Part shown: piece after piece, positions 13,877 to 24,390 of the stretch | How the letters are laid out: every line of letters starts with the position of its first letter | Position numbering within the stretch: position 1 is the stretch's first letter | Origin: Glycomyces sp. YM15 | GTDB lineage: Bacteria; Actinomycetota; Actinomycetes; Mycobacteriales; Micromonosporaceae | DNA: 64,000 bases | Direction of reading: 5' to 3' | NCBI RefSeq assembly: GCF_016918015.1 | Contig: NZ_JAERMK010000009.1 | Coordinates: forward strand, 62,001-126,000 | Made by a program: the position numbers and the translations under genes | Notes under the pieces: model-generated | Told to the model about the DNA's origin: nothing | Database searches by the model: none | What the model saw: the letters and a program-made list of their open reading frames with translations, nothing else

Positions 13877-15658
13877 ATGACCTCTCAGCGATTCGAGCTC
13901 AGCCGACGCAACCTCATGCAGGCGGTCGGCCTCGGCGCCGGCGCCGTTGCGACCGCGGGCGTCCTCGGTGCCTGCCAGGCCGAAGGATCGGAAGGCGAAG
14001 GCGCCAGCGGCACCTTCGTCTACGTCTACCCGTTCGACATCACCACCCAGCACCACAACGCGGCGATCAACAACGCCGCCCTGCTGGTCCCGGCGCCCGT
14101 GGCGGAGCTGTTCCTGCCCCGCCCGGCGATCCTCGACTGGGACACCCTGGAGTGGATCCCGCAGCTGGCCGAGTCGGTCGAACTGGTCGACAAGACCCTC
14201 ACGATCAAGCTGCGCTCCGGTGTCAAGTGGACCGACGGCAACGCCGTCACCGCGAAGGACGTCGTGGGCACCATCTACCTGCAGAAGCTCAACGCCGCGC
14301 AGGGCACCGTCGGCTGGGACCAGCTGGTCTCGGCGACGGCCGACGACGACACCACGGTCACCGTCACGTACTCGGCGGCGTTCCCCGGCGTCGAGCACGG
14401 CGCGTTGAAGGCGCAGATCCTGCCGCACGCCCGCTACGGCGAGTGGATGGACGAGGCGCAGGGCCTGGTCGAGGCCGGTGCGGTGCAGGGCAGCCCGGAG
14501 CAGTCGGCGCTGGCGGAGAAGATCGCGGCCGTCGACTTCAAGGACGAGGACCCGATCACCAGCGGCGCCTACCAGTTCGACCAGATCGGCGAGACCGTCA
14601 TCTCGTTCAAGGTCCACCCGGACGGGCTGTTCGCCGACCAGGTGAAGTTCGCGAAGATCGAGGTCCAGAACGGCGACAACGCCGCCGCGGTGCAGATGCT
14701 GCTCTCGCAGGAGATCGACTACTGCACGCAGGTGCTGGGCGCGGCGGACCGCCAGACGATCGCGAGGGTCGAGGGGCTCAAGGAGCTGTCGACGCCGGGC
14801 TTCGACGGCATCGGCCTGATGCTCAACCAGGGCCGGTTCCCGGAGTTCGCCGACGCGCGGGTGCGCAAGGCGTTCATGTACATCCTCGACGGCGAGTCGA
14901 TCGGCGAGATCGCGAAGGGCAACGGCGGCTACTACATCCCGAACACGTACTCGGGTCTGCCCGACCCGCACGCGGAAGGCCTGTTCGACGACGTCGAGCT
15001 GGAGTACTACACGCCCGACCACGCGAAGGCGACCGCGCTGTTCGAAGAGGCCGGCTGGAAGAAAGAGTCCGACGGCTGGCACACCCCGGCGGGCGACCTG
15101 GCCGAGTACGCGATCATCGGCGTGGAAGGCTGGACCGACTTCGTGCTCTCCGGTGAGCAGGCCGCGGCCCAGCTCAAGGAGTTCGGACTCCAGGTCACCT
15201 ACAAGAGCGTCCCGGAGGACAACCCGTGGGGCATCTGGGGCACCGGCGACTTCGACATCGCGGTGCGCCAGTGGGCGAACCCGTTCGTGCCTTACGCCTA
15301 CGGCTCCTGGCAGATGGCGTGGTTCACCGACAACGCCGGCACCGCCGACAACGCGGGCATGGGCATCCCGACCGACGAGGTCGACTCCCCCAGCCAGGGC
15401 AAGGTGAACGTCGCCGAGGTGTTCCTCAAGTCCCAGCAGGGCACCGAGGAGGAGCAGGCCGCCGCGAACAAGACGCTCGGCATCGTGTTCAACGAGACCC
15501 TGCCGCGCCTGCCGCTGTTCCTGAACCAGCGCGTCAGCTACGGCATCGAGGGCGTCCGCGTGAAGGCGATCGACCCGGGCTCGTACGCGCTCAACGACGT
15601 CTACTTCGACAACCCGATCATGGTCCGCGTCCTCGACGGCGCCATCGAACCGGCGTAG
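13877..15658 (+). CDS. ABC uptake solute-binding lipoprotein, family 5 (SBP_bac_5)
   Basis: 593 residues. The N-terminus ELSRRNLMQAVGLGAGAV is a twin-arginine signal followed by lipobox LGAC (Cys about 35), so the protein is probably exported by Tat and lipidated. The mature part has the family 5 layout (TLTIKLRSGVKWTDGNAVTA, domain II, then a C-terminal lobe). It captures the substrate outside the cell and hands it to the DppBC-like channel. ATG at 13877 has AAAGGA eight nt upstream. It is the last gene of the operon after a 65-nt gap and before a strong terminator. Peptides are the default substrate guess. Family 5 proteins also bind oligosaccharides. Confidence 0.93.
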   Translation: MTSQRFELSRRNLMQAVGLGAGAVATAGVLGACQAEGSEGEGASGTFVYVYPFDITTQHHNAAINNAALLVPAPVAELFLPRPAILDWDTLEWIPQLAESVELVDKTLTIKLRSGVKWTDGNAVTAKDVVGTIYLQKLNAAQGTVGWDQLVSATADDDTTVTVTYSAAFPGVEHGALKAQILPHARYGEWMDEAQGLVEAGAVQGSPEQSALAEKIAAVDFKDEDPITSGAYQFDQIGETVISFKVHPDGLFADQVKFAKIEVQNGDNAAAVQMLLSQEIDYCTQVLGAADRQTIARVEGLKELSTPGFDGIGLMLNQGRFPEFADARVRKAFMYILDGESIGEIAKGNGGYYIPNTYSGLPDPHAEGLFDDVELEYYTPDHAKATALFEEAGWKKESDGWHTPAGDLAEYAIIGVEGWTDFVLSGEQAAAQLKEFGLQVTYKSVPEDNPWGIWGTGDFDIAVRQWANPFVPYAYGSWQMAWFTDNAGTADNAGMGIPTDEVDSPSQGKVNVAEVFLKSQQGTEEEQAAANKTLGIVFNETLPRLPLFLNQRVSYGIEGVRVKAIDPGSYALNDVYFDNPIMVRVLDGAIEPA

Positions 15659-16275: not shown

Positions 16276-16821
16276 ATGACCATCAGATCGAGACTGTGGG
16301 CTTCGCTGGCTGTGGCGCTCGCAATGATGCTCGCGGCCGGACTGGGAGTCGCCGGGCCTGCTGCGGCCGATTCCGGCACAGGCGATCTCGCCGCAGCAGA
16401 CGCTGCCGAGCTCGGCGCTCTGCTCGATGTCGAGTATATGCCGCAACCCGACGGCTATATCGAGATCACCGAGTACGAGAACGCCACTGAAATCACGATG
16501 GTCGCAGCAGATTGCGAGAGGACTGTGCGCGCGAACAAGCCCACGAAGTCCACGTCACGCATCCGCGGCAGCGGCTACTACAGCATCTCAGGGTGCGGCA
16601 GCAGCCCATATGAGGTCATCATCAGCCTCGAGATCTATGTCAACGGATACTGGCTGTCACAGCGCTCGTGGAGCTTCCTGACCTACCCCCCGATCAGTGG
16701 CGAGCCCAGCATCAGCACGCCCTGCAAAAGGGGGGGCTGGACCACCACGATGAACCTCACGAAGAACGGCAGCTCGGTTAAGTACCTGAGAAGCAACGCC
16801 CTGAACGTGACATCGTGCTGA
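16276..16821 (+). CDS. Small secreted protein with four cysteines, unknown
   Basis: 181 residues. MTIRSRLWASLAVALAMMLA and the following AGPAAA-DS form a Sec signal peptide with cleavage near residue 32. The mature protein has a short acidic pro-like stretch and then a Ser/Gly/Tyr-rich domain with four Cys (DCERT, GCGSS, PCKRGG, terminal TSC), which could form two disulfides. No enzyme motif is visible. ATG at 16276 follows an AAGGAAGAAGG ribosome site. Base composition is less GC-rich than the flanking operons. It is followed after 20 nt by a second secreted four-Cys protein, so the two probably form an operon and may act together outside the cell. Confidence 0.75.
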   Translation: MTIRSRLWASLAVALAMMLAAGLGVAGPAAADSGTGDLAAADAAELGALLDVEYMPQPDGYIEITEYENATEITMVAADCERTVRANKPTKSTSRIRGSGYYSISGCGSSPYEVIISLEIYVNGYWLSQRSWSFLTYPPISGEPSISTPCKRGGWTTTMNLTKNGSSVKYLRSNALNVTSC

Positions 16822-16841
16822 ACGGCCGAGAGGAGCAAACC

Positions 16842-17228
16842 ATGAAGTATCGACGATGGATCGCAAAGATGGCGGTGGCGCTGATGGTCTTCGGGATCGG
16901 CGCGGTCAGCGCGACCATACCGGCCTCGTCCGCATCAGCCGCCGGCTGCACCCTCACCACCAGTATCAGCGGACCGAACAAAGTCGGATCGAAGGTCAAC
17001 GGCATCTTGAACATCAAAGTGTCCGGTTGCTCAGGCCGTTACTGGACGGAGTACAGCTACCTCAACGGCCCCACGAACGACGGACGTACGGTGACCTACA
17101 GGGGCGACCGAGACTACTCGGTCCTTCTCAGCGCGCCGTGCCGAACCGGAACCTACAGGCTCATCCTGCAGATCCGCGGCGACGGATTCGACTCCTATGA
17201 CGAGCAATCGAAGTACATCCGATGCTGA
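16842..17228 (+). CDS. Small secreted protein with four cysteines, unknown
   Basis: 128 residues. ATG at 16842 is chosen over an in-frame upstream start at 16815 because GAGAGGAG lies just before it and MKYRRWIAKMAVALMVFGIG begins a clean Sec signal peptide (cleavage near ASA-AG, about residue 31). The mature part of about 97 residues has four Cys (AAGC, VSGC, APCRTG and the last residue), and alternating hydrophobic residues that suggest a beta-sandwich. It resembles its neighbour in size, Cys count and a C-terminal Cys, but the sequences do not align clearly. Function unknown. Secretion is the only firm inference. Confidence 0.75.
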   Translation: MKYRRWIAKMAVALMVFGIGAVSATIPASSASAAGCTLTTSISGPNKVGSKVNGILNIKVSGCSGRYWTEYSYLNGPTNDGRTVTYRGDRDYSVLLSAPCRTGTYRLILQIRGDGFDSYDEQSKYIRC

Positions 17229-17451
17229 CCTTAATGCCTTGAGCCGGTTCCGGATCTCCGCACACGCAGCCGCCCCGCATGAGACCCAGGGGCTTTCAAG
17301 TCGTCCTTCATACCCGCCACATGGGTGATGGGAGCCTGCGCCGACTCATGGTGACGACTCTGGGGTGTTCGCACCTTTCGATGCCGGGCCCGGCGAGAAC
17401 GGACTCGCGGTGATGCCGCCTGCTCGCGCCTCATCAGACCCGAGAAGTTCA

Positions 17452-17484
17452 GGCCCGGACTCCGCGTTGAGCGGGGTCCGGGCC
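17452..17484. terminator. Bidirectional terminator between convergent operons
   Basis: 14-bp stem GGCCCGGACTCCGC / GCGGGGTCCGGGCC with one T-G wobble and a 5-nt loop. It sits between the plus-strand secreted-protein pair and the end of the minus-strand operon that stops at 17493. Confidence 0.7.
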
Positions 17485-17492
17485 CTTCGAGT

Positions 17493-17966
17493 TCAGTCCT
17501 CAGGTCGGCCGAGGATCCAGGTGGTCATGCGTTTTCGCGCGTAGTGGACGAGGTGTTCCGGGTTCGCTTTGAGCCATGGGTGGCGGGCGAGTTCGTGGGC
17601 GAGCGCTGAGTAGTGCGCTTGGCTGCGTCGCTGCTCGGACAGCGGTTCGGCCAGGTGCGGTTCGCCGTAGAGCGCCCGCGTGACGGCTTCGACGGCGAGG
17701 TGGTCGGGCGGCGGGACGGTCCCGCGGCCGGCCTGGCGCAGTTCGGTCATGAACTCGCCCAGGCGGTTGTAGTCGATCAGGCCCGCTCCGAGTCCGGCGC
17801 CGGGTCCGAAGCGGTATTCGAGGACGACGGCGACGGCGGCACGAAGGTGTTCGGCGGCGATGCCGTGGTCTTTCGCCTGGAACTGATGCCGGAGTCTCGC
17901 GGCCGTGTCGACTTCGCCGGTGACGAGCGCCGTGAGGTGCGTGCGGTGGAGCGCTTCGGGTGTCAT
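17493..17966 (-). CDS. Unknown helical protein, paralogue family A (third member)
   Basis: 157 residues. ATG at 17966 overlaps the upstream stop as ATGA and has AAGGA eight nt before it. The long frame extending further upstream is a shadow. The protein is soluble and mostly helical. Its central part (YRFG at 51-54, then HLAVEAVTRALYGEP at about 89-103 and LSEQ) lines up with the EPDP/EAMIRAV/EIPH region of the 197-aa neighbour and with the 143-aa protein encoded at 20770-21201. This indicates three copies of one domain family. I recognise no named family. Last gene of a four-gene operon. Confidence 0.7.
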   Translation of the reverse strand: MTPEALHRTHLTALVTGEVDTAARLRHQFQAKDHGIAAEHLRAAVAVVLEYRFGPGAGLGAGLIDYNRLGEFMTELRQAGRGTVPPPDHLAVEAVTRALYGEPHLAEPLSEQRRSQAHYSALAHELARHPWLKANPEHLVHYARKRMTTWILGRPED

Positions 17967-18556
17967 GCGTCGGTTCCTTCCTCGGCGGGAGTGGCCGGGT
18001 CTGGATCGCCCTGGGCGGGCTCGGTTTGGACGGGCTCGGTTTGGACGGGTGCGGTTTGCACCGGTGCTGCCGGCTCGCGCTTCGGCGAGTTGAGCTCTGG
18101 CGAATCGAGGGCTCTGCCGAGCAGGTCTTCGCGGGCTTCTTCGACGAGGTCGAAGAGTTCGTCCAGGTCGGCTTCGGTCAGTTTCGGGTCGGCGAGGTCG
18201 TCGATGACGGCCCACATGTAGGCGGCCTGCTCGGTGTGCGGGATCTCGGTGAGCAGGACTGATTCGGCGGTGACGGCCCGGATCATGGCCTCGGCGCGCA
18301 GCGCCTCGAACGGGCGATCCGGACGGAAATGCTTGTCGTGCAGGCGCTTGGTGAGCGCGGCGAGGTCAGTCGGGTCGGGTTCGTAGCCGAGTTCTTCGAC
18401 CACGAACTGGGTGAAGAGGGTCAGCGTGAACAGCAGGTGGCTCATGCGCTGCTCGTCGCTGATCTGCGCGGCGAGGCGGGCGGCTTCGGTGGTGTCGCCG
18501 GTGAGGCGGGCGGCGGCATGGGCGCGGAACAGCGCCGTGCTCTCGGTGTAGTCCAT
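17963..18556 (-). CDS. Unknown helical protein, paralogue family A (second member)
   Basis: 197 residues from ATG 18556, which has AAGGA five nt upstream. An ATG at 18562 would overlap the preceding stop as ATGA but leaves no room for the ribosome site, so either could be used. Residues 1-120 are an acidic helical domain with EPDP (59-62), EAMIRAVTAES (89-99) and EIPH (104-107), all shared with the 143-aa protein at 20770-21201. The last 45 residues are a disordered tail with the repeated pentapeptide-like unit PVQTE. No enzymatic motif or membrane segment is visible. Confidence 0.7.
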   Translation of the reverse strand: MDYTESTALFRAHAAARLTGDTTEAARLAAQISDEQRMSHLLFTLTLFTQFVVEELGYEPDPTDLAALTKRLHDKHFRPDRPFEALRAEAMIRAVTAESVLLTEIPHTEQAAYMWAVIDDLADPKLTEADLDELFDLVEEAREDLLGRALDSPELNSPKREPAAPVQTAPVQTEPVQTEPAQGDPDPATPAEEGTDA

Positions 18557-18558
18557 GG

Positions 18559-18945
18559 TCATCCTTCGCATTCGCGTTGGGCCACATGCCAGGCCGCGAC
18601 GGCTTCGCGTTTGAGCGCGGCAGCCCGTCCGGGCTGGCGGGCCCAGTCGAGGTGGTCGAGTCCGGTGATGTGCAGTTCCGGGCATGCGGAGCCCGATGCG
18701 GTGGTGTCGAAACCGGTGATGAAGCCCAGGACGGGCGGCACGTGTTCGGGGAGCGTGATCCACAAGCGCGGGATCGCGTACAGCACCCCGAAGCGGACCT
18801 GGCGGCCGAAGACCTCGGTCTCGGCGACGGTGGTGAGGCCGTCGGGGTCGATCCCGCCGAACGACCTCACCGGCAGCGGGATCTCCCTGAGCGCCTGGTC
18901 ATACCGGGCGCGGATGCGGTACGGAGCGAGGCGGCCTACGCCCAT
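18559..18945 (-). CDS. Unknown 128-aa protein
   Basis: 128 residues. ATG at 18945 is supported by GGAGG six nt upstream and lies inside the end of the preceding gene (10-nt overlap). The upstream extension of the frame is Arg/Pro-rich shadow. The sequence has alternating hydrophobic strands (FGVLYAIPRLWITLPEHVPP) and a helical C-terminus (RAAALKREAVAAWHVAQ), so a compact alpha/beta fold is likely. One Cys (SACPEL) and one near the end. No family recognised. It is the second gene of the operon starting at 20462 and is tightly coupled on both sides, so it very likely works with those neighbours. Confidence 0.65.
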   Translation of the reverse strand: MGVGRLAPYRIRARYDQALREIPLPVRSFGGIDPDGLTTVAETEVFGRQVRFGVLYAIPRLWITLPEHVPPVLGFITGFDTTASGSACPELHITGLDHLDWARQPGRAAALKREAVAAWHVAQRECEG

Positions 18946-20462
18946 GCCGCACCTCCGGACGCGCGGGTTCCGGTCCCGGGCACCGACATTCCAGGCGCGA
19001 ACACGGGCGCTGTGCGTCGGGGCACCGATGCCTCGGTGCGGGCCCGCTGCGCTCCGCGCACGGCCCCGGCGAACCGGGCGGTCCGGGCCGCGAGCGCGGT
19101 GTGGCGGTCGGGTGGCGCCGGCTTCTCCGCGCGTGGCTTGGGCCGGTGGCGGAGGAGCCCGATGGTCAGGCGGATGCCGCGTGCGATCCTGCCGATGGTC
19201 GGGCCGCATTCGCGTTCGATCACGGTCGGCGAGCGGTGGGCGGCGGCGAGGTCAGCGGACTTCTCGATGAACCGGTCCCAGGCGTCTTCGCGCAGCTTGC
19301 CGAACCGGTGCGGTGAATCCTCGGGGATGCCGGTAGGGACATCGGTCGCGCGGCGATCCGCCTGACGCGGCAGGTGAGGATGGTGCTGCGGGCGCACTTG
19401 ACGTGCCACGGGTTCGCGGATCGGTTCGCGGATCGGTTCGCGCGCTTGGGGTTCGGTCTCGGGCCGCGCCCAGGGCTGAGGCCGGGGCCCCGGTTGCGGA
19501 CTGGGACGCTCTTCGGAAACCGGCGGCCGGGACGGTGGTTCGGGAGGGTCCGTGTTGTCGCGGTCGGCGCCTTCGCCTGGTGTGGAGGGTCGGCGGTCGG
19601 TGGCATCGCGGTGATTGACCTCCCGGTGATTGGCTTCCCGGGCTTCCTGGGCTTCGCGTTCGCGGGTGATGCGGGTGCGGCGGTCGTAGAGCGCTTCGGC
19701 GCGCTCGGCCCACTCGGCTTTCTCGGGGTCCTCTTCGATCTCCCACCAGGGGATCGGGTCGGGGAGCTCGTCACGGCGGTGACGGCCGGTCCGGCGGTCG
19801 GGGAACCATCCCGGGGAGCCGAACGGGCCCGGGTCGAGGACATCGTAGGGGCGGGTCTTGTCGATCAACCAGTCATCGCCTGGCTTGTGCCGCAGGTGGT
19901 CCGGCTCGTAGCGCGGCGACCAGGGGTCGTCATCGGCGGCGTCGAGGACGCACAGGTCTGGACGGGTCTGGTACCGGTAGGCCCCGGGTGTCATCGGATC
20001 GGGAGAGCCGTCGGACAGGAAGAGGCGACGGCCCGCCCAGTCGTAGTAGCCGTCTACCTCCCCGAAGAGCCCGGGGTTCTTCGGGTGCGGGTAGGCCGGG
20101 TTGTGGCGAGGGTCGGACGAGACCGGCCCGGCTTTCCCCGGGGTGAATCGCGGCGTGGGGAGCGGTTCGGTGCGCGGCTCGGTGTGCAGCGCGGGACGCG
20201 GTTCGGGACCCGGTTCGGAACGCGGCACAGGACATGGTTCGGTTTGCGGCGCGGCATGTGGCTCGGTGTGCGGCACGGAATCGCGGACGGCGATGTTGCG
20301 GAGCCGAGCACGCAGGATCGCCGCGAGTTCCTCGTCGCTGCCGGGGATCGGGCCGGACTCGGGGTTGGCGGGTGCGGTGGAGTAGGCGGCGGCTTCGGAG
20401 GTGAAGCGGCGGGAATGGCTGTTTTCAGGTACGCCGGAATAGCGTATCGTCGTAGACGACAC
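18936..20462 (-). CDS. Large Pro/Arg-rich protein of unknown function
   Basis: 508 residues from a GTG at 20462 with AAGGAG seven nt upstream. Residues 55-105 contain repeated (T/S)EP units. A more ordered, Trp/Tyr/Asp-rich core follows at about 115-260 (NPGLFGEVDGYYDWAGRRLF, then DPWSPRYEPDH, DPIPWWEIEEDPEKAEW). A second disordered Pro/Arg/Glu stretch precedes a C-terminal helical segment (HRFGKLREDAWDRFIEKSAD) and a basic tail. No membrane segment or catalytic motif is visible. The layout suggests a scaffold or adaptor rather than an enzyme. First gene of the operon, transcribed from the palindrome-containing promoter at 20536-20565. Confidence 0.65.
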   Translation of the reverse strand: MSSTTIRYSGVPENSHSRRFTSEAAAYSTAPANPESGPIPGSDEELAAILRARLRNIAVRDSVPHTEPHAAPQTEPCPVPRSEPGPEPRPALHTEPRTEPLPTPRFTPGKAGPVSSDPRHNPAYPHPKNPGLFGEVDGYYDWAGRRLFLSDGSPDPMTPGAYRYQTRPDLCVLDAADDDPWSPRYEPDHLRHKPGDDWLIDKTRPYDVLDPGPFGSPGWFPDRRTGRHRRDELPDPIPWWEIEEDPEKAEWAERAEALYDRRTRITREREAQEAREANHREVNHRDATDRRPSTPGEGADRDNTDPPEPPSRPPVSEERPSPQPGPRPQPWARPETEPQAREPIREPIREPVARQVRPQHHPHLPRQADRRATDVPTGIPEDSPHRFGKLREDAWDRFIEKSADLAAAHRSPTVIERECGPTIGRIARGIRLTIGLLRHRPKPRAEKPAPPDRHTALAARTARFAGAVRGAQRARTEASVPRRTAPVFAPGMSVPGTGTRASGGAAWA

Positions 20463-20486
20463 GGAAGGACTCCTTCTGTTGTTGGA

Positions 20487-20534
20487 GCCGCCCGGCGGAA
20501 CCAGGTTTTAGCGGACTCAGGCCCGCCGGGCGGC
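20487..20534. promoter_or_regulatory. 12-bp inverted repeat near the start of the 20462 transcript
   Basis: Perfect arms GCCGCCCGGCGG and CCGCCGGGCGGC with a 24-nt spacer, ending 24 nt ahead of the GTG start. The predicted transcription start (about 20529) falls inside the outer arm, so the symmetry may act in DNA, or as a leader hairpin if transcription starts further up. Confidence 0.45.
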
Positions 20535-20535
20535 G

Positions 20536-20565
20536 ATTACATTCTGACCTATCAGAATTGGTCAA
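20536..20565 (-). promoter_or_regulatory. Promoter with operator-like palindrome in the spacer
   Basis: On the minus strand TTGACC (20565-20560), an 18-bp spacer, and TGTAAT (20541-20536) make a good vegetative promoter for the gene starting at 20462. The spacer is mostly the palindrome ATTCTGA-TAGG-TCAGAAT (20541-20558, 7-4-7). A dimeric repressor bound there would block RNA polymerase directly. Confidence 0.6.
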
Positions 20566-20601
20566 TGCGATCTGGATGCTTCGTAACAAGCTCCGTTCGA
20601 G

Positions 20602-20682
20602 ACGTAAGAACTTGGCCCGCAAGAGATTGCGAGTGCCGGTCCTTCGATGATGACTCATCAAAAACTTACGTGTCAACTTACG
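20602..20682. repeat. Three CTTACG boxes
   Basis: AACTTACG occurs at 20663-20670 and again at 20675-20682 (12-bp period). The same core occurs inverted as CGTAAG at 20603-20608. It lies upstream of the promoter at 20536-20565 and could serve an activator. Confidence 0.4.
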
Positions 20683-20715
20683 ATGCAAGAGTGTCTAGAA
20701 GTTTTTGAGAGCTTA

Positions 20716-20746
20716 AGGGGGCCAAGGGCTTTGCCCTTGGCCCCCT
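20716..20746 (-). terminator. Terminator of the 22249-20770 operon
   Basis: 14-bp perfect stem AGGGGGCCAAGGGC / GCCCTTGGCCCCCT with a 3-nt T loop, 24 nt after the stop of the 143-aa gene. It separates the two minus-strand operons of unknown genes. Confidence 0.75.
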
Positions 20747-20769
20747 AGAGATGCTGTGGCGATGACCGA

Positions 20770-21201
20770 CTACCGATTAGCCCTTTCGATGGCCTTGTCG
20801 ATGAGTTGGTCGACTTGATCCGGAGTGAACCCAAGCTGCTTGACCATCAGATACGACGCCGAAGGCATCACCGTGTTCGCAGTGGCATGCGGGACCTCAT
20901 CGAACAGGTCCGACTCGCCAAGGACCGACCGGATCAGCATCTCAACATGGATCGGCTTGACCTTTTCGGCGGAGTTGTTGACTCCGACCATGAAGGCATC
21001 GACAAAGGCCTTGATTGCGCGGGGGTCGGGTTCCTTGCCGAAGCGTTGTCGCACCGACAGGCCGAAAAGGGCCGTATTGAGCCGACCCGACCCCGGCCAT
21101 TCGCCGTCAGGAAGGTCGTTGAAATGCCGCGCGGAGCTTTCGAAGTCCTGCTTCAGCAGGGCGCGAAGGTACTCGACGTACTTCGCCAGCAGCTCATCCA
21201 T
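20770..21201 (-). CDS. Unknown helical protein, paralogue family A (first member)
   Basis: 143 residues. ATG at 21201 has AGGAGG four nt upstream and overlaps the preceding gene by 8 nt. The protein is predicted helical and soluble. FGKEPDP (54-60), HVEMLIRSVLGES (85-97) and DEVPH (101-105) match the corresponding stretches of the 197-aa protein at 17963-18556 (GYEPDP, AEAMIRAVTAES, TEIPH), and more weakly the 157-aa protein. Family not recognised. As the last gene of an operon with two coiled-coil proteins, one membrane-anchored, it may be their cytosolic partner. Confidence 0.7.
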   Translation of the reverse strand: MDELLAKYVEYLRALLKQDFESSARHFNDLPDGEWPGSGRLNTALFGLSVRQRFGKEPDPRAIKAFVDAFMVGVNNSAEKVKPIHVEMLIRSVLGESDLFDEVPHATANTVMPSASYLMVKQLGFTPDQVDQLIDKAIERANR

Positions 21202-21982
21202 CGTTCCTCCTGAATCGGTTCACTAGCTTCTTAGTTGCGTAGGCCGCTCCGACCCCGGCTACCGCCAGCGAGGCGGTAAGGCTGGCCTTGCTGAACGGCG
21301 GTGGGTTGAAAGGGATCGCGGTGCTTACAGCTCCGTCGTCTTGGATGGTGATCGTGCGAAGTTCGCTCGGTGCCGGCCCTCGTTCGAGGCCCTTAACAAT
21401 GTTATCGAGCGAGTCGGCGACGTTCTTTGTGCCGTCGGACAAGTCATCGGATTTGCGCATCAACCGGTCGAATTCGTCGTCTTCATCCTCGAATTGGAGG
21501 ATCGCGGGCGGCTGCGGCACAGCCTCCCACGGCTCGATCTGGTCGCCGTTCCGGTACTGCAGCTCAGGAGAGGAGACGCAGTCAGAGCCTTCAGGTGTGT
21601 TCTCGCCATCTGAGCTCGGCGCTGCGGGAGTGAGCGGATCGTTCGGAAGCGGGCCGCTACCGCCCCCGGCCGCTCCGGCGTTAGCGGAGCTGTCAGGTGC
21701 CGAGCTTCGTGCTCCCGGTCCAAGGGTGCCGTGGATGGCCGACAGCACAATGAAGTGCGCCTTCACCAACGCGCCCTGCAACGCAGCGCGCATCGACTCG
21801 GCCTCCTCGATCTTCTCGACCACGCCGCGCATCCGCTCGGACGCGACCTCGACACCAAGCCCGCCAAGAGCCCTGGCCGTGTGCTCGGCCTGCCCCTTCG
21901 ACGAATTGATCGGTCCGGCGACCGCCTCGACCGCAGCCCGATCGGACTCGATCTTGGCGGCCAAGTCCTGCAGACGCGCCAC
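21194..21982 (-). CDS. Tail-anchored coiled-coil protein of unknown function
   Basis: 262 residues from GTG 21982, nine nt after the stop of the 85-aa gene. No clear ribosome site is visible, so coupling is likely. Residues 1-85 are helical and align with the whole 85-aa neighbour (shared pattern V..V.G.I..SK, LGVE, SM.AALQ). Residues 90-215 are a polar, Ser/Pro/Asp-rich linker. Residues about 232-251 (KASLTASLAVAGVGAAYATK) are one membrane segment followed by a basic tail (NRFRRNDG). This suggests a C-terminal tail-anchored membrane protein with a cytoplasmic coiled coil. It is reminiscent in layout of small secretion-type or ESX-like helical proteins, but no WXG or LXG motif is present. Confidence 0.7.
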   Translation of the reverse strand: MARLQDLAAKIESDRAAVEAVAGPINSSKGQAEHTARALGGLGVEVASERMRGVVEKIEEAESMRAALQGALVKAHFIVLSAIHGTLGPGARSSAPDSSANAGAAGGGSGPLPNDPLTPAAPSSDGENTPEGSDCVSSPELQYRNGDQIEPWEAVPQPPAILQFEDEDDEFDRLMRKSDDLSDGTKNVADSLDNIVKGLERGPAPSELRTITIQDDGAVSTAIPFNPPPFSKASLTASLAVAGVGAAYATKKLVNRFRRNDG

Positions 21983-21991
21983 GACCGATAC

Positions 21992-22249
21992 TTACTGCTG
22001 CTTCGCAGCCGCCGCCGCAGCCATCGCCTCGTTCAGCTTGTTCTGCAACGCAGCAGCCATCGCGCTGCACTCTTCCAGCGCTTCCTTACAACCCGACAGC
22101 GCCGCCATCGCACCCTCGACGCCCAAGGCCTGCAACTGACCCAGGGTCTCCTCGGTCATCGCCTTGCTGCCCTCGATCTGTCCCTGAACCTCCGTCACCG
22201 CGTTCGCATTCGCACTGACCGAGGCGATCACATCATCAATCGAAGCCAT
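21992..22249 (-). CDS. Small coiled-coil protein of unknown function
   Basis: 85 residues, helical throughout, ending in an Ala/Lys/Gln tail. ATG at 22249 is chosen because a GGA lies seven nt upstream. An in-frame ATG at 22261 would add four residues. The size and two-helix appearance recall WXG100-like proteins, but the Trp-x-Gly turn is absent. The central pattern (EVQGQIEGSK, QLQALGVE, CSAMAAALQNKL) is repeated in the N-terminus of the next gene product, so the pair may hetero-oligomerise. First gene of the three-gene operon. No function can be assigned. Confidence 0.7.
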   Translation of the reverse strand: MASIDDVIASVSANANAVTEVQGQIEGSKAMTEETLGQLQALGVEGAMAALSGCKEALEECSAMAAALQNKLNEAMAAAAAAKQQ

Positions 22250-22420
22250 GGGAGCATCCATTCGCGCTGGTTCCGGTTGGGGCACAGGTGATCGCGAAGT
22301 CGTACAACCGCTCCGCGAACCGCCGTCGCGGCCCACGTTACCCGACCCGGGTCAACCGCGCATGACACGCTGACGGTCATCGACCCGAACCACGGTTGGC
22401 TCCCAACGCTCCGGAATGAA

Positions 22421-22456
22421 AAGAGGGCCCGGACGCTTGCGCATCCGAGCCCTCTT
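22421..22456 (-). terminator. Terminator of pknB
   Basis: Interrupted stem with outer 8-bp arms AAGAGGGC / GCCCTCTT and inner GC pairs. It begins 12 nt after the pknB stop and is followed on the minus strand by a TTTTC-like tail. It ends the pknA-pknB transcript. Confidence 0.75.
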
Positions 22457-22467
22457 CGCTTGCTCTG

Positions 22468-24390
22468 CTAGCCGTTGCCCTGGTCGCAGGGCGGCGTGTC
22501 CAGCGGGTTGCTGCAGGTCTCCGACGGGGACTCCGAGGTCTCGTCGTCGCCGCCTCCGCCGCCGTCTCCAGCGGCGGCGGTGATGGTGACCTCGGAACCG
22601 GGCTTAACGGCCATGCCGCTGGTGATCGGCCCGTCCTCATTGGTGACCGCCTCGATGGTCTCGGCGGTCGGGTCACCCTCGATCGTGGCGGTGAGCCCGA
22701 GACCCTGCAGGGTCGTCTGGAGCTGCTCCGGCGTGGTCGCGGCGTCCCAGGTGATCACCACGCCCTGGGCGGTGATGGTCACCGTGGTGCCGTCGGACTC
22801 GGTCGAGCCCTGGCCCGGATCCTGCTTGAAGACGACGCCCGTCGAAGTGCCCGCCTGGACGCCGTACTCGACCGCCACCTCGAAACCGGCCTCGTTCAGC
22901 GTGGTGGTCGCCCGCTCGACGGTCATGCCGAACACGTCGGGCACCTTGGTCTGGCCGCCCGCCGACACCACCAGCGTGACCTCGGTAGTCGGCGGGACTT
23001 CGGTCCCGGCCTTGGGATCCTGGGACAGCACCTGGCCGGACGGCGCGGTGTTCGACTCTTCCTTCTTGACGACCTTCAGGCCCTGGGCTTCGAGGGTCGC
23101 CTTCGCCTCTTCGAACTGCTCGTCCACGACGTTCTCGACCTTGACGTTCTCGGGCGCGACCATCACGGTGAGTGTGATCGTCTCGCCCTCGTCGACCTCA
23201 GTGTTCGGTTTCGGGTCCTGGTCGGTGACGTGGTCGATGTTCGTGTCGTTCGGATCGGTCGCGGCCACTTCGGTGAACTTCACCTCGAAGCCGTCATCGG
23301 TGAGCGTCTTCTCCGCCACCGCACGTTCCTGCCCGACGACGTTCGGCACCGCCACCATCGCCGACGTCTCGAGCAACTTCATGATCCCCCACGACGCCGC
23401 CGTGACCGCGACGAGCGCGAGGATCACCCCCAGGGCGATCAGCCACGGGCGGCGCTTGCTCGACGAGGTCGCGATCGGCGTGATCGGAGCGGTCGAGTCG
23501 GGGCCGGCGAGCATCTGGGTCCGGTCGCCCGCGCTCATCACCGCGGGGGCCATCACGGCCTGCCCGCGCGCGGCGCGGATGAGGTCCTCGCGCATCTCCC
23601 CGGCCGAGTGGTACCGGTTCTCGGGGTTCTTCGCGAGCGCCTTCATGATCACGGCGTCCACAGAGGCGGGAATGGCCGGGTTCAGTTCCGAAGGCGGCCG
23701 CGCCTCTTCCCGCACGTGCTGGTAGGCGACGGACACGGGGTTGTCGCCGGTGAACGGCGGGTGCCCCACGAGCAGTTCGTAGAGGACGCAGCCGACCGCG
23801 TACACGTCCGAGCGGGCGTCGACGGTCTCGCCGCGCGCCTGCTCGGGCGAGAGGTACTGCGCGGTGCCGATGACGGCACTGGTCTGGGTCATGGTCGCCT
23901 GGCCGCTGGCCAGGGCCCGGGCGATGCCGAAGTCCATGACCTTGACCTGGTTGGTGTCCGAGAGCATCACGTTGCCGGGCTTGACGTCCCGGTGGATGAT
24001 GTGGTGCTTGTGGCTGAAGTCGAGGGCCGAGCACATGTCGGCCACGACCTCGCAGGCCGTCGCCGGGTCGAAGCGGCCCTCGGCCATCAGGACTTCTTTG
24101 AGGGTCCGGCCGTTGACGAACTCCATCACCATGTACGGGATGCCGGCGTCCTCGCCGGTGTCGAAGACCGCGACGATGTTCGGATGGTTGAGCGACGCCG
24201 AGTTCTGGGCCTCGCGCTGGAACCGGATGAGGAAGGACTCGTCGCGAGAGAGGTCGGCCCGCAGCAGCTTCACCGCCACGTCGCGGCCGAGTCGCAGGTC
24301 CCGGCCACGGTGGACTTCAGCCATCCCCCCGTAGCCGACGACCTCGCCGATCTCGTATCTGCCGCCTAGGAGGCGGGGCTCTGTCGTCAT
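22468..24390 (-). CDS. pknB: Serine/threonine protein kinase PknB with four PASTA repeats
   Basis: 640 residues. The kinase domain (about 11-275) has Gly loop VVGYGGMAEV, catalytic Lys41 (VAVKLL), HRD 133-135 with Lys137 and Asn140, DFG 153-155 and an APE-like SPEQARG. A single membrane helix lies at 315-338. Four extracellular PASTA domains (about 345-605) follow, then a Gly/Asp/Ser tail. The PASTA units sense peptidoglycan fragments or lipid II, and the kinase phosphorylates cell-wall and division proteins. ATG at 24390 has GAGGA ten nt upstream. It lies 73 nt after pknA in the usual actinobacterial order. The fourth PASTA begins GVVITWDAATTPEQL and is more divergent than the others. Confidence 0.96.
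   Translation of the reverse strand: MTTEPRLLGGRYEIGEVVGYGGMAEVHRGRDLRLGRDVAVKLLRADLSRDESFLIRFQREAQNSASLNHPNIVAVFDTGEDAGIPYMVMEFVNGRTLKEVLMAEGRFDPATACEVVADMCSALDFSHKHHIIHRDVKPGNVMLSDTNQVKVMDFGIARALASGQATMTQTSAVIGTAQYLSPEQARGETVDARSDVYAVGCVLYELLVGHPPFTGDNPVSVAYQHVREEARPPSELNPAIPASVDAVIMKALAKNPENRYHSAGEMREDLIRAARGQAVMAPAVMSAGDRTQMLAGPDSTAPITPIATSSSKRRPWLIALGVILALVAVTAASWGIMKLLETSAMVAVPNVVGQERAVAEKTLTDDGFEVKFTEVAATDPNDTNIDHVTDQDPKPNTEVDEGETITLTVMVAPENVKVENVVDEQFEEAKATLEAQGLKVVKKEESNTAPSGQVLSQDPKAGTEVPPTTEVTLVVSAGGQTKVPDVFGMTVERATTTLNEAGFEVAVEYGVQAGTSTGVVFKQDPGQGSTESDGTTVTITAQGVVITWDAATTPEQLQTTLQGLGLTATIEGDPTAETIEAVTNEDGPITSGMAVKPGSEVTITAAAGDGGGGGDDETSESPSETCSNPLDTPPCDQGNG

Follow-up and report, generated by a model that had tools for sequence, protein, structure and literature searches.

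We describe a set of seven genes in a 64,000-nucleotide stretch of a Glycomyces genome (G000:C62:62001-126000, G000 being the genome that contains it; this whole stretch is called the window below). As judged from sequence comparison, the seven genes are two separable modules with an evolutionary link, i.e., module A (P6-P5-P3) and module B (P7-P4-P2-P1), all on the minus strand. The two module B members P1 and P2 are, on a tree of the family, descended from the family of the module A protein P3. Module B is furthermore preceded by a structured leader that is classed, by its conserved helices, as a new family of translation-controlling leader RNA, a known kind, that is absent from Rfam. Positions of all features are given in Table 1.

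Results

Three members of one helical family

A preliminary description of this DNA had placed the proteins of 143, 197 and, more weakly, 157 amino acids (aa; P3, P2 and P1, respectively) in one undescribed helical family. Profile-profile comparisons back this three-way paralogy with 99.8% for P2 vs. the P3 family (E 5e-30), 99.7% for P1 vs. P3 (E 3e-25) and 99.0% for P2 vs. P1 (E 5e-18), which excludes chance. Within the window, P2 and P3 are also related by phmmer (9e-5 and 5e-4), and no direct match of P1 to P2 or P3 is found at E <= 0.01. That is, the kinship of P1 is visible only through its orthologues and through profiles, such that the weaker grading of this protein was appropriate. 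The family motif is E-x3-R-x3-G-E, with E87 invariant and R91, G95 and E96 each found in at least 90% of 83 sequences; in the window's P2, A replaces the G. P6 and the N-terminal part of P5 are paralogous as well (phmmer in the window 1e-8 and 1e-7), which had gone unmentioned.

Structure prediction yields eight helices for P3 (predicted local distance difference test, pLDDT, 95.4; 83 sequences) and an antiparallel sheet with helices for P4 (pLDDT 84.1; 46 sequences). With regard to a fold shared by the three paralogues, the helical bundle is thus predicted for P3, while P1 and P2 were compared with it by profile and not by predicted structure.

The tree of the P3 family comprises 83 members and 148 columns, and 41 of its 80 inner branches are well supported. 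P2 forms a single clade (100/96). P1, P2 and two rows labelled module A make up a set of 24 (98/95) that is nested among the module A proteins; one of these two rows groups inside P1 (the label module A was given to L022:950-1414 although it groups with P1). Since this clade nests within module A, the tree derives both P1 and P2 from the A family.

A structured leader ahead of module B

The leader ahead of the module B genes is about 117 nt long. Within P7 codons 1-18, third bases at shared 4-fold codons are identical in 392/432 = 0.91 of the comparisons (nine loci), compared with 0.53, 0.51 and 0.63 in three other parts of P7, 0.58 in P4, 0.57 in P2 (eight loci) and 0.54 in P1. Judged by these alignments, conservation of the upstream DNA and of P7's first codons goes further than the protein would require.

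Next to conservation, we assessed pairing within the leader. From 40 leaders, seven without anchor and two removed by hand were set aside, which left 31 sequences (alignment A9), and a further removal (L132) gave 30 (A10). Here, RNAalifold predicts hairpin H1 alone on A9. In both alignments, H1 is paired in 99.7% of the cells, and 5 of its 12 pairs show two-sided changes. For H2, 80.7% of the cells are paired and 5/5 pairs show two-sided changes in A9 (74.0% and 4/5 in A10). Slid controls reach 31-55%, and none of 500 shuffles attains the observed score or percentage; only the number of further pair types is not above the shuffles (427/500 and 398/500 for A9 and A10). H1 and H2 are thus conserved helices with compensatory changes ahead of a start codon, as expected of a translation-controlling leader RNA.

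Hairpins of at least 5 bp within the last 22 nt before the start are present in 17/31 leaders compared with 21/196 other genes with a Shine-Dalgarno (SD) sequence, and those of at least 4 bp in 25/31 vs. 66/196. The predicted probability of an unpaired start codon averages 0.04 in the leaders vs. 0.46 in 195 control starts (p about 1e-14). Single-sequence folding gives a z-score of -4.5 for the window's leader and of -1.8 to -5.8 for 12 others, the weakest values coming from two leaders of the second type introduced below.

A promoter scan reports one sigma70-like site, TTGACA-18-CATCAT, at 20676-20647, and CAGAAT immediately ahead of H1 was noted by eye as an alternative promoter element, i.e., the promoter position is uncertain. 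As either candidate lies upstream of both hairpins, H1 and H2 should be inside the transcript. Rfam gives 0 matches up to E 1 for window positions 17200-22500 and 0 matches at gathering score for six further loci.

In the first type of leader (type I), the upper 5' arm of H1 is complementary both to its own 3' arm and to a segment of the loop. The resulting alternative hairpin is paired in 92.8% of the cells, and its pair 20-27, which is outside H1, shows two-sided changes in 11/30 sequences. The number of its pairs with two-sided changes does not exceed that in shuffles (2 vs. 1.8), and single-sequence folds favour the full H1.

Occurrence of the leader

We searched 101 genomes of the taxonomic family with the leader model R1. 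All 18 hits with E < 1e-20 are found within five of the six Glycomyces sampled, and each has a P7 or P4 gene behind it on the same strand within 3 kb. The leader hits at L283 and L290 precede a short P7, with no P4 recognised. Of eleven weaker sense hits in Glycomyces, ten (E 6e-10 to 0.007) precede P4 genes, and the one in G011 (E 0.0014) is the exception. Outside the genus, four genomes give hits (best 1.2e-5), and neither P7 nor P4 is close to any of these. The other entries in the list are echoes on the minus strand, caused by the palindrome at these same positions.

The second subtype (type II) comes from 34 weaker model hits, of which the 32 distinct ones were examined. Type II leaders follow the same plan with an H1 of different sequence (GGYGGGCCGCC/GGCGGCCCRCC and variants, 11-12 bp); short hairpins precede the start, which reads (A/G)TGG. 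Among the 63 leaders of types I and II, 17 carry an exact upstream reverse complement to the start codon extended by one base, where shuffled starts lead to an expectation of 9.0 (3/5000 shuffles are as high). Because relatedness is ignored in this statistic, the count is taken as supportive only.

Distribution and separability of the modules

The P3 family is present in 121/300 genomes of the taxonomic family, distributed over 20/44 genera. Across the phylum, 4/296 genomes are positive, i.e., the window's own and three with matches over only 47 columns. In other genera, 12 of 20 P3 loci have a P5-profile match immediately ahead of the P3 gene. P4 is found in at least 18/300 genomes, when the best 14 candidates per genome are scored, and every one of these is a Glycomyces (at least 18 of the 22 sampled). 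For four Glycomyces genomes, in which all candidates were scored, 8, 25, 7 and 10 P4 matches were obtained, fragments included.

The conserved neighbourhood expected for the two operons is observed at most loci with a P2 gene: among 17 such loci (the window and L061-L076), 13 have A-type genes within 5 kb, although in L072 this is only one P3-like gene. At L061, L066, L070 and L074, module B has no A-type gene within this distance. The modules run in the same direction or face each other (L071, L073), and the flanks of the 17 loci mostly differ, with shared sites for L061/L063/L064 and for L062/L065. Module A occurs in other genera without B genes; the P7-P4 pair is seen only in Glycomyces and often lacks P2-P1 or module A. 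Of the one dedicated system suggested earlier, frequent co-location of A and B therefore stands, but one indivisible seven-gene unit or operon is ruled out by the separate occurrence of its modules.

Within 140 bp behind P4, a P3-family gene follows in 16 of the 74 distinct P4 genes in our script's list; further cases are L065, L066, L076 (P2 missed by the gene caller) and L247 (contig start). A constant third partner behind P4 was considered and rejected, with the other P4 loci showing mixed genes or no same-strand gene in the stretch examined.

Some P4 loci differ in composition. Tandem P4 genes are found at L239:6579-7620 and L240:6324-6947, with an overlap of a few bases between the two copies. 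Hsp70-like proteins are encoded behind P7-P4 pairs at L163:11-6326 and L170:4052-6816, the one of L170 being a Pfam HSP70 match. At L165:5661-5912, the position before P4 is taken by the gene of an 83-aa protein and not by a P7-like gene; this protein contains a Cys/His cluster (C-x2-C...HGC) and has no Pfam match, a type II leader lies ahead of it, and similar arrangements are seen at some P4 loci. At L155:6268-12165, a 288-aa open reading frame (ORF) carries a P4 domain at its end and is directly followed by a type ISP restriction-modification enzyme. XRE regulator and DUF397-like genes, named by eye, are often found near the P3 gene in other genera, as at L121, L122, L125, L128, L129 and L130.

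Chromosomal site and gene set

At the window's site, i.e., the stretch behind pknB (about 1.5 kb examined; about 0.7 kb in L315), A and B genes are absent in 20/20 other Glycomyces. The peptide-binding gene of the window (13877-15658) is found behind pknB in 12 of these 20 (8 long alignments, 4 shorter). Together, both observations point to a slot of varying content, which in the window is filled by the cassette plus two small genes (16276-17228). We thus regard the genes, on this comparison of genomes, as an accessory cassette found at shifting chromosomal places. Given the absence of A and B genes in all 20, we also dropped the idea that P7-P4 is part of the pknB cluster. No integrase stands beside the cassette in the window's gene list, for which no profile search for integrases was made. 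Counted from their first starts, the two small genes encode proteins of 181 and 137 aa, which look secreted by eye; the genes sit between the cassette and a peptide-transport operon, within the same variable slot.

Every one of the seven ORFs is open as described earlier, and their tight coupling is confirmed by overlaps of 8 nt (P5/P3), 10 nt (P7/P4) and 4 nt (P2/P1). The palindrome-rich promoter region reported between the operons exists and contains the structured leader of module B. For the terminator reported next to it, a GC-rich hairpin is present, but it has no T run and is absent from the list of the terminator scan. Our gene caller was home-made and trained on the window; it overlooks genes with low G+C at third codon positions (low GC3), such as P5.

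Table 1. Features of the cassette in window coordinates
Feature	Position	Strand	Remark
P6, 85 aa	21992..22249	-	first gene of module A; helical hairpin judged by eye
P5, 262 aa	21194..21982	-	module A; hairpin, then Pro-rich linker, then C-terminal stretch
P3, 143 aa	20770..21201	-	module A; predicted eight-helix bundle
GC-rich hairpin	20717..20745	-	between modules A and B; possible terminator, no T run
Conserved stretch, repeated TTACG motifs	20541..20700	-	putative promoter/operator; alignment and nhmmer
Structured leader, model R1	20420..20540	-	reaches into first codons of P7
Leader hairpin H1, 12 bp	20487..20534	-	two-sided changes at 5/12 pairs
Leader hairpin H2	20464..20476	-	over ribosome-binding site
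P7, 508 aa	18936..20462	-	first gene of module B; Pro-rich with conserved islands
P4, 128 aa	18559..18945	-	module B; predicted sheet with helices
P2, 197 aa	17963..18556	-	module B; belongs to P3 helical family
P1, 157 aa	17493..17966	-	module B; belongs to P3 helical family

Searches against known families

In agreement with the preliminary description, which recognised none of the families, the seven proteins are without a family name in Pfam, NCBIfam, PADLOC and PHROGs. With Pfam and NCBIfam, no nuclease, ATPase or other effector domain is found in them, and PADLOC-DB 2.0.0 gives no significant profile match (best E 0.011 and 0.047, over short stretches). Ten proteins from related loci in other genera are likewise without usable known-family match. 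Sequence search against the PDB ends at best E values of 0.035 (P3 alignment) and 0.88 (P4 alignment), and Foldseek against the PDB at 0.58 (P3) and 0.51 (P4). The top VIA-align row for P3 is a VP30 C-terminal-domain-like fold (Z 6.3, root-mean-square deviation, rmsd, 4.8 over 95 residues). This Z is under the level deemed telling for helical bundles, and Foldseek's best row for P3 is another protein. Both this likeness and that of P4 to Hat1 (VIA-align Z 7.3, rmsd 4.0 over 86 residues) are too weak for use. A scan of viral_contigs with P3 as sole query returned no relative.

Discussion

We propose that the two-module accessory cassette encodes an assembly whose second module is controlled by its leader, and give this mechanism as a whole a probability of about 0.4. 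Within module A, P6 and the N-terminus of P5, as related hairpins, would probably pair. P5 would probably be held at the membrane by its C end, while P3, a predicted helical bundle, would probably be the soluble partner of P6/P5. Within module B, P7 may serve as a low-complexity scaffold with conserved islands and P4 as its small partner; P2 and P1, which are nested in the P3 family, would probably dock module B onto the A complex. Module B itself would be under translational control. That is, its mRNA would begin with the GC hairpin H1; H2 would follow and cover the ribosome-binding site. With the start codon predicted to be paired as well, translation would stay off until some factor opens the leader. 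The simplest opening or feedback factor would be P4 or P7 acting on the leader.

Several observations weigh against this mechanism. The start-codon helix over the first codons (H3) is paired in 89.6% of the cells but shows zero two-sided changes in A9, and we dropped it as a proven helix. Kinship among the sequences inflates the pair counts. The SD sequence is no less accessible than in controls (unpaired probability 0.49 vs. 0.44, p 0.92); because of this equality, it is burial of the start codon and not of the SD sequence that distinguishes the leaders. With regard to the membrane association suggested earlier, the most hydrophobic stretch of 26/27 P5 relatives is close to the C-terminus and followed by a basic tail, while the window's own P5 has it at residue 67 and no dominant C-terminal one; membrane association of the system is possible. 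Since P2-P1 and A are both missing from the surroundings of many P7-P4 pairs, docking on A is excluded as a general role of such pairs. Finally, interaction, complex formation and regulation are all inferred from sequence.

Three other explanations were weighed. WXG100/ESX substrate operons of type VII secretion comprise pairs of small helical-hairpin proteins plus a further small protein in one operon, and module A resembles them in this arrangement. Under a type VII (ESX)-like reading, P6 and P5 would be WXG100-like secreted partners, P3 a chaperone or immunity protein and P7-P4 an accessory pair. Weak Pfam WXG100 matches at E <= 0.1 occur in 2/40 P5/P6 proteins (best E 0.0012), but other coiled-coil families match these proteins equally often. 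PF06013 does not match the window's P6 or P5, and one P6-family protein reaches 21.7 bits vs. a cut-off of 27.3. The W-x-G in the turn between the helices is found in 0/40 P5/P6 proteins, and the Y-x3-D/E secretion motif after the hairpin, a defining feature of WXG100 (PF06013), within the first 130 residues of only 1/40. Proximity speaks partly for a link: 8/44 P4 loci, from four Glycomyces genomes, lie at most 10 kb from EspC/WXG100-like genes, where 2.07 are expected (p about 0.001), with hand-copied positions, uniform placement assumed, and 6/50 P4 matches (fragments or weak) as well as one PF06013 hit that is itself of the P6 family excluded. At 5 kb, this drops to 4/44 vs. 1.14 expected (p 0.027), and 36/44 loci have no such neighbour within 10 kb. 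The P3 fold moreover has no clear PDB match, in which it differs from these operons, and we know of no counterpart of the P7-P4 pair with its RNA leader among them. We therefore consider this reading unlikely and the type VII link a lead, no more. As a side observation, a P4-domain fragment and two paired, true WXG100 genes share a strand at G012:C3:77667-78758 and are about 300 bp apart.

Somewhat less probable still is a phage-defence or conflict cassette, as might be suspected from the patchy, multi-copy distribution in variable chromosomal slots and from the lack of A and B at the window's site in all 20 other Glycomyces. Single P4 loci also lie near a type ISP restriction enzyme (L155), NB-ARC/TPR (L152) and trypsin/TPR genes (L293), but these neighbours were hand-picked and not sampled. 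The lack of a usable PADLOC match, of effector domains in the seven genes and of a viral_contigs relative of P3 also argues against defence. To a similarly low degree we credit the idea that the conserved element acts as DNA, i.e., that H1 is the operator palindrome of a repressor and the conservation of P7's first codons is transcriptional. H1 is indeed a long inverted repeat, the arms of which would be kept matched by symmetry alone, and the stretch upstream of it is conserved too. H2, in contrast, changes its sequence and yet stays paired right before the start (GAAGG/CCTTC, GAAAG/CTTTC, GAGAG/CTCTC), and there is a tendency for bases 5' of H2 to match the start codon and one further base (the 17/63 given above, with relatedness ignored), both of which favour an RNA leader.

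Further known systems share single traits with the cassette. DUF6244 proteins (PF19757) are, like P6, small (about 87 aa) and from the same bacterial family. They match 6/40 P5/P6 proteins weakly (best E 0.0031; Pfam cut-off 31.6 bits); there is no DUF6244 match in G000, and 0 families are found at E <= 0.1 for the window's P6. Genuine DUF6244 genes of ten genomes are mostly located elsewhere. G080 has five DUF6244 genes, two of which (C1:1955355 and C1:5021965) are separated by about 2.2-2.5 kb from P3-family genes of the other strand.

Leaders of ribosomal protein operons are structured RNAs that control translation, and the Glycomyces leader is likewise a 5' structure that spans the ribosome-binding site and the start codon of its operon. 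It differs in having no Rfam match and strong hits only before Glycomyces P7/P4 genes. The XRE-DUF397 pairs of actinomycetes are small genus- or family-bound gene pairs with many copies per genome, which also describes P7-P4 as a repeated, genus- or family-bound small pair; P7 and P4 differ in their structured leader and in that Pfam finds no such domains in them. Our literature search returned nothing on Glycomyces type VII secretion or structured RNA/riboswitches, on DUF6244, or on Stackebrandtia tail-anchored proteins.

Returning to the assembly-plus-leader mechanism, a wider interpretation is offered only tentatively, namely that the cassette represents a novel class of bacterial system, in which an assembly built from paralogues, spread over one actinobacterial family and perhaps tethered to the membrane, is combined with an RNA-controlled Glycomyces module made from a copied helical subunit. 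Glycomyces would then have copied the helical subunit of the assembly so that a second module can plug in, and the leader would be a new class of cis-regulatory RNA, perhaps bistable in its type I form.

For the biology of these bacteria, the leader provides a handle on genes that no library names, since both the locking of the start codon and the protein that opens it become testable. If the start codon is locked, G015 alone has about 20 loci of the same small protein, many of them behind one undescribed RNA design. The P3 helical family, with its wide occurrence in the taxonomic family and no named relative in the libraries searched, is a target for structural and genetic work.

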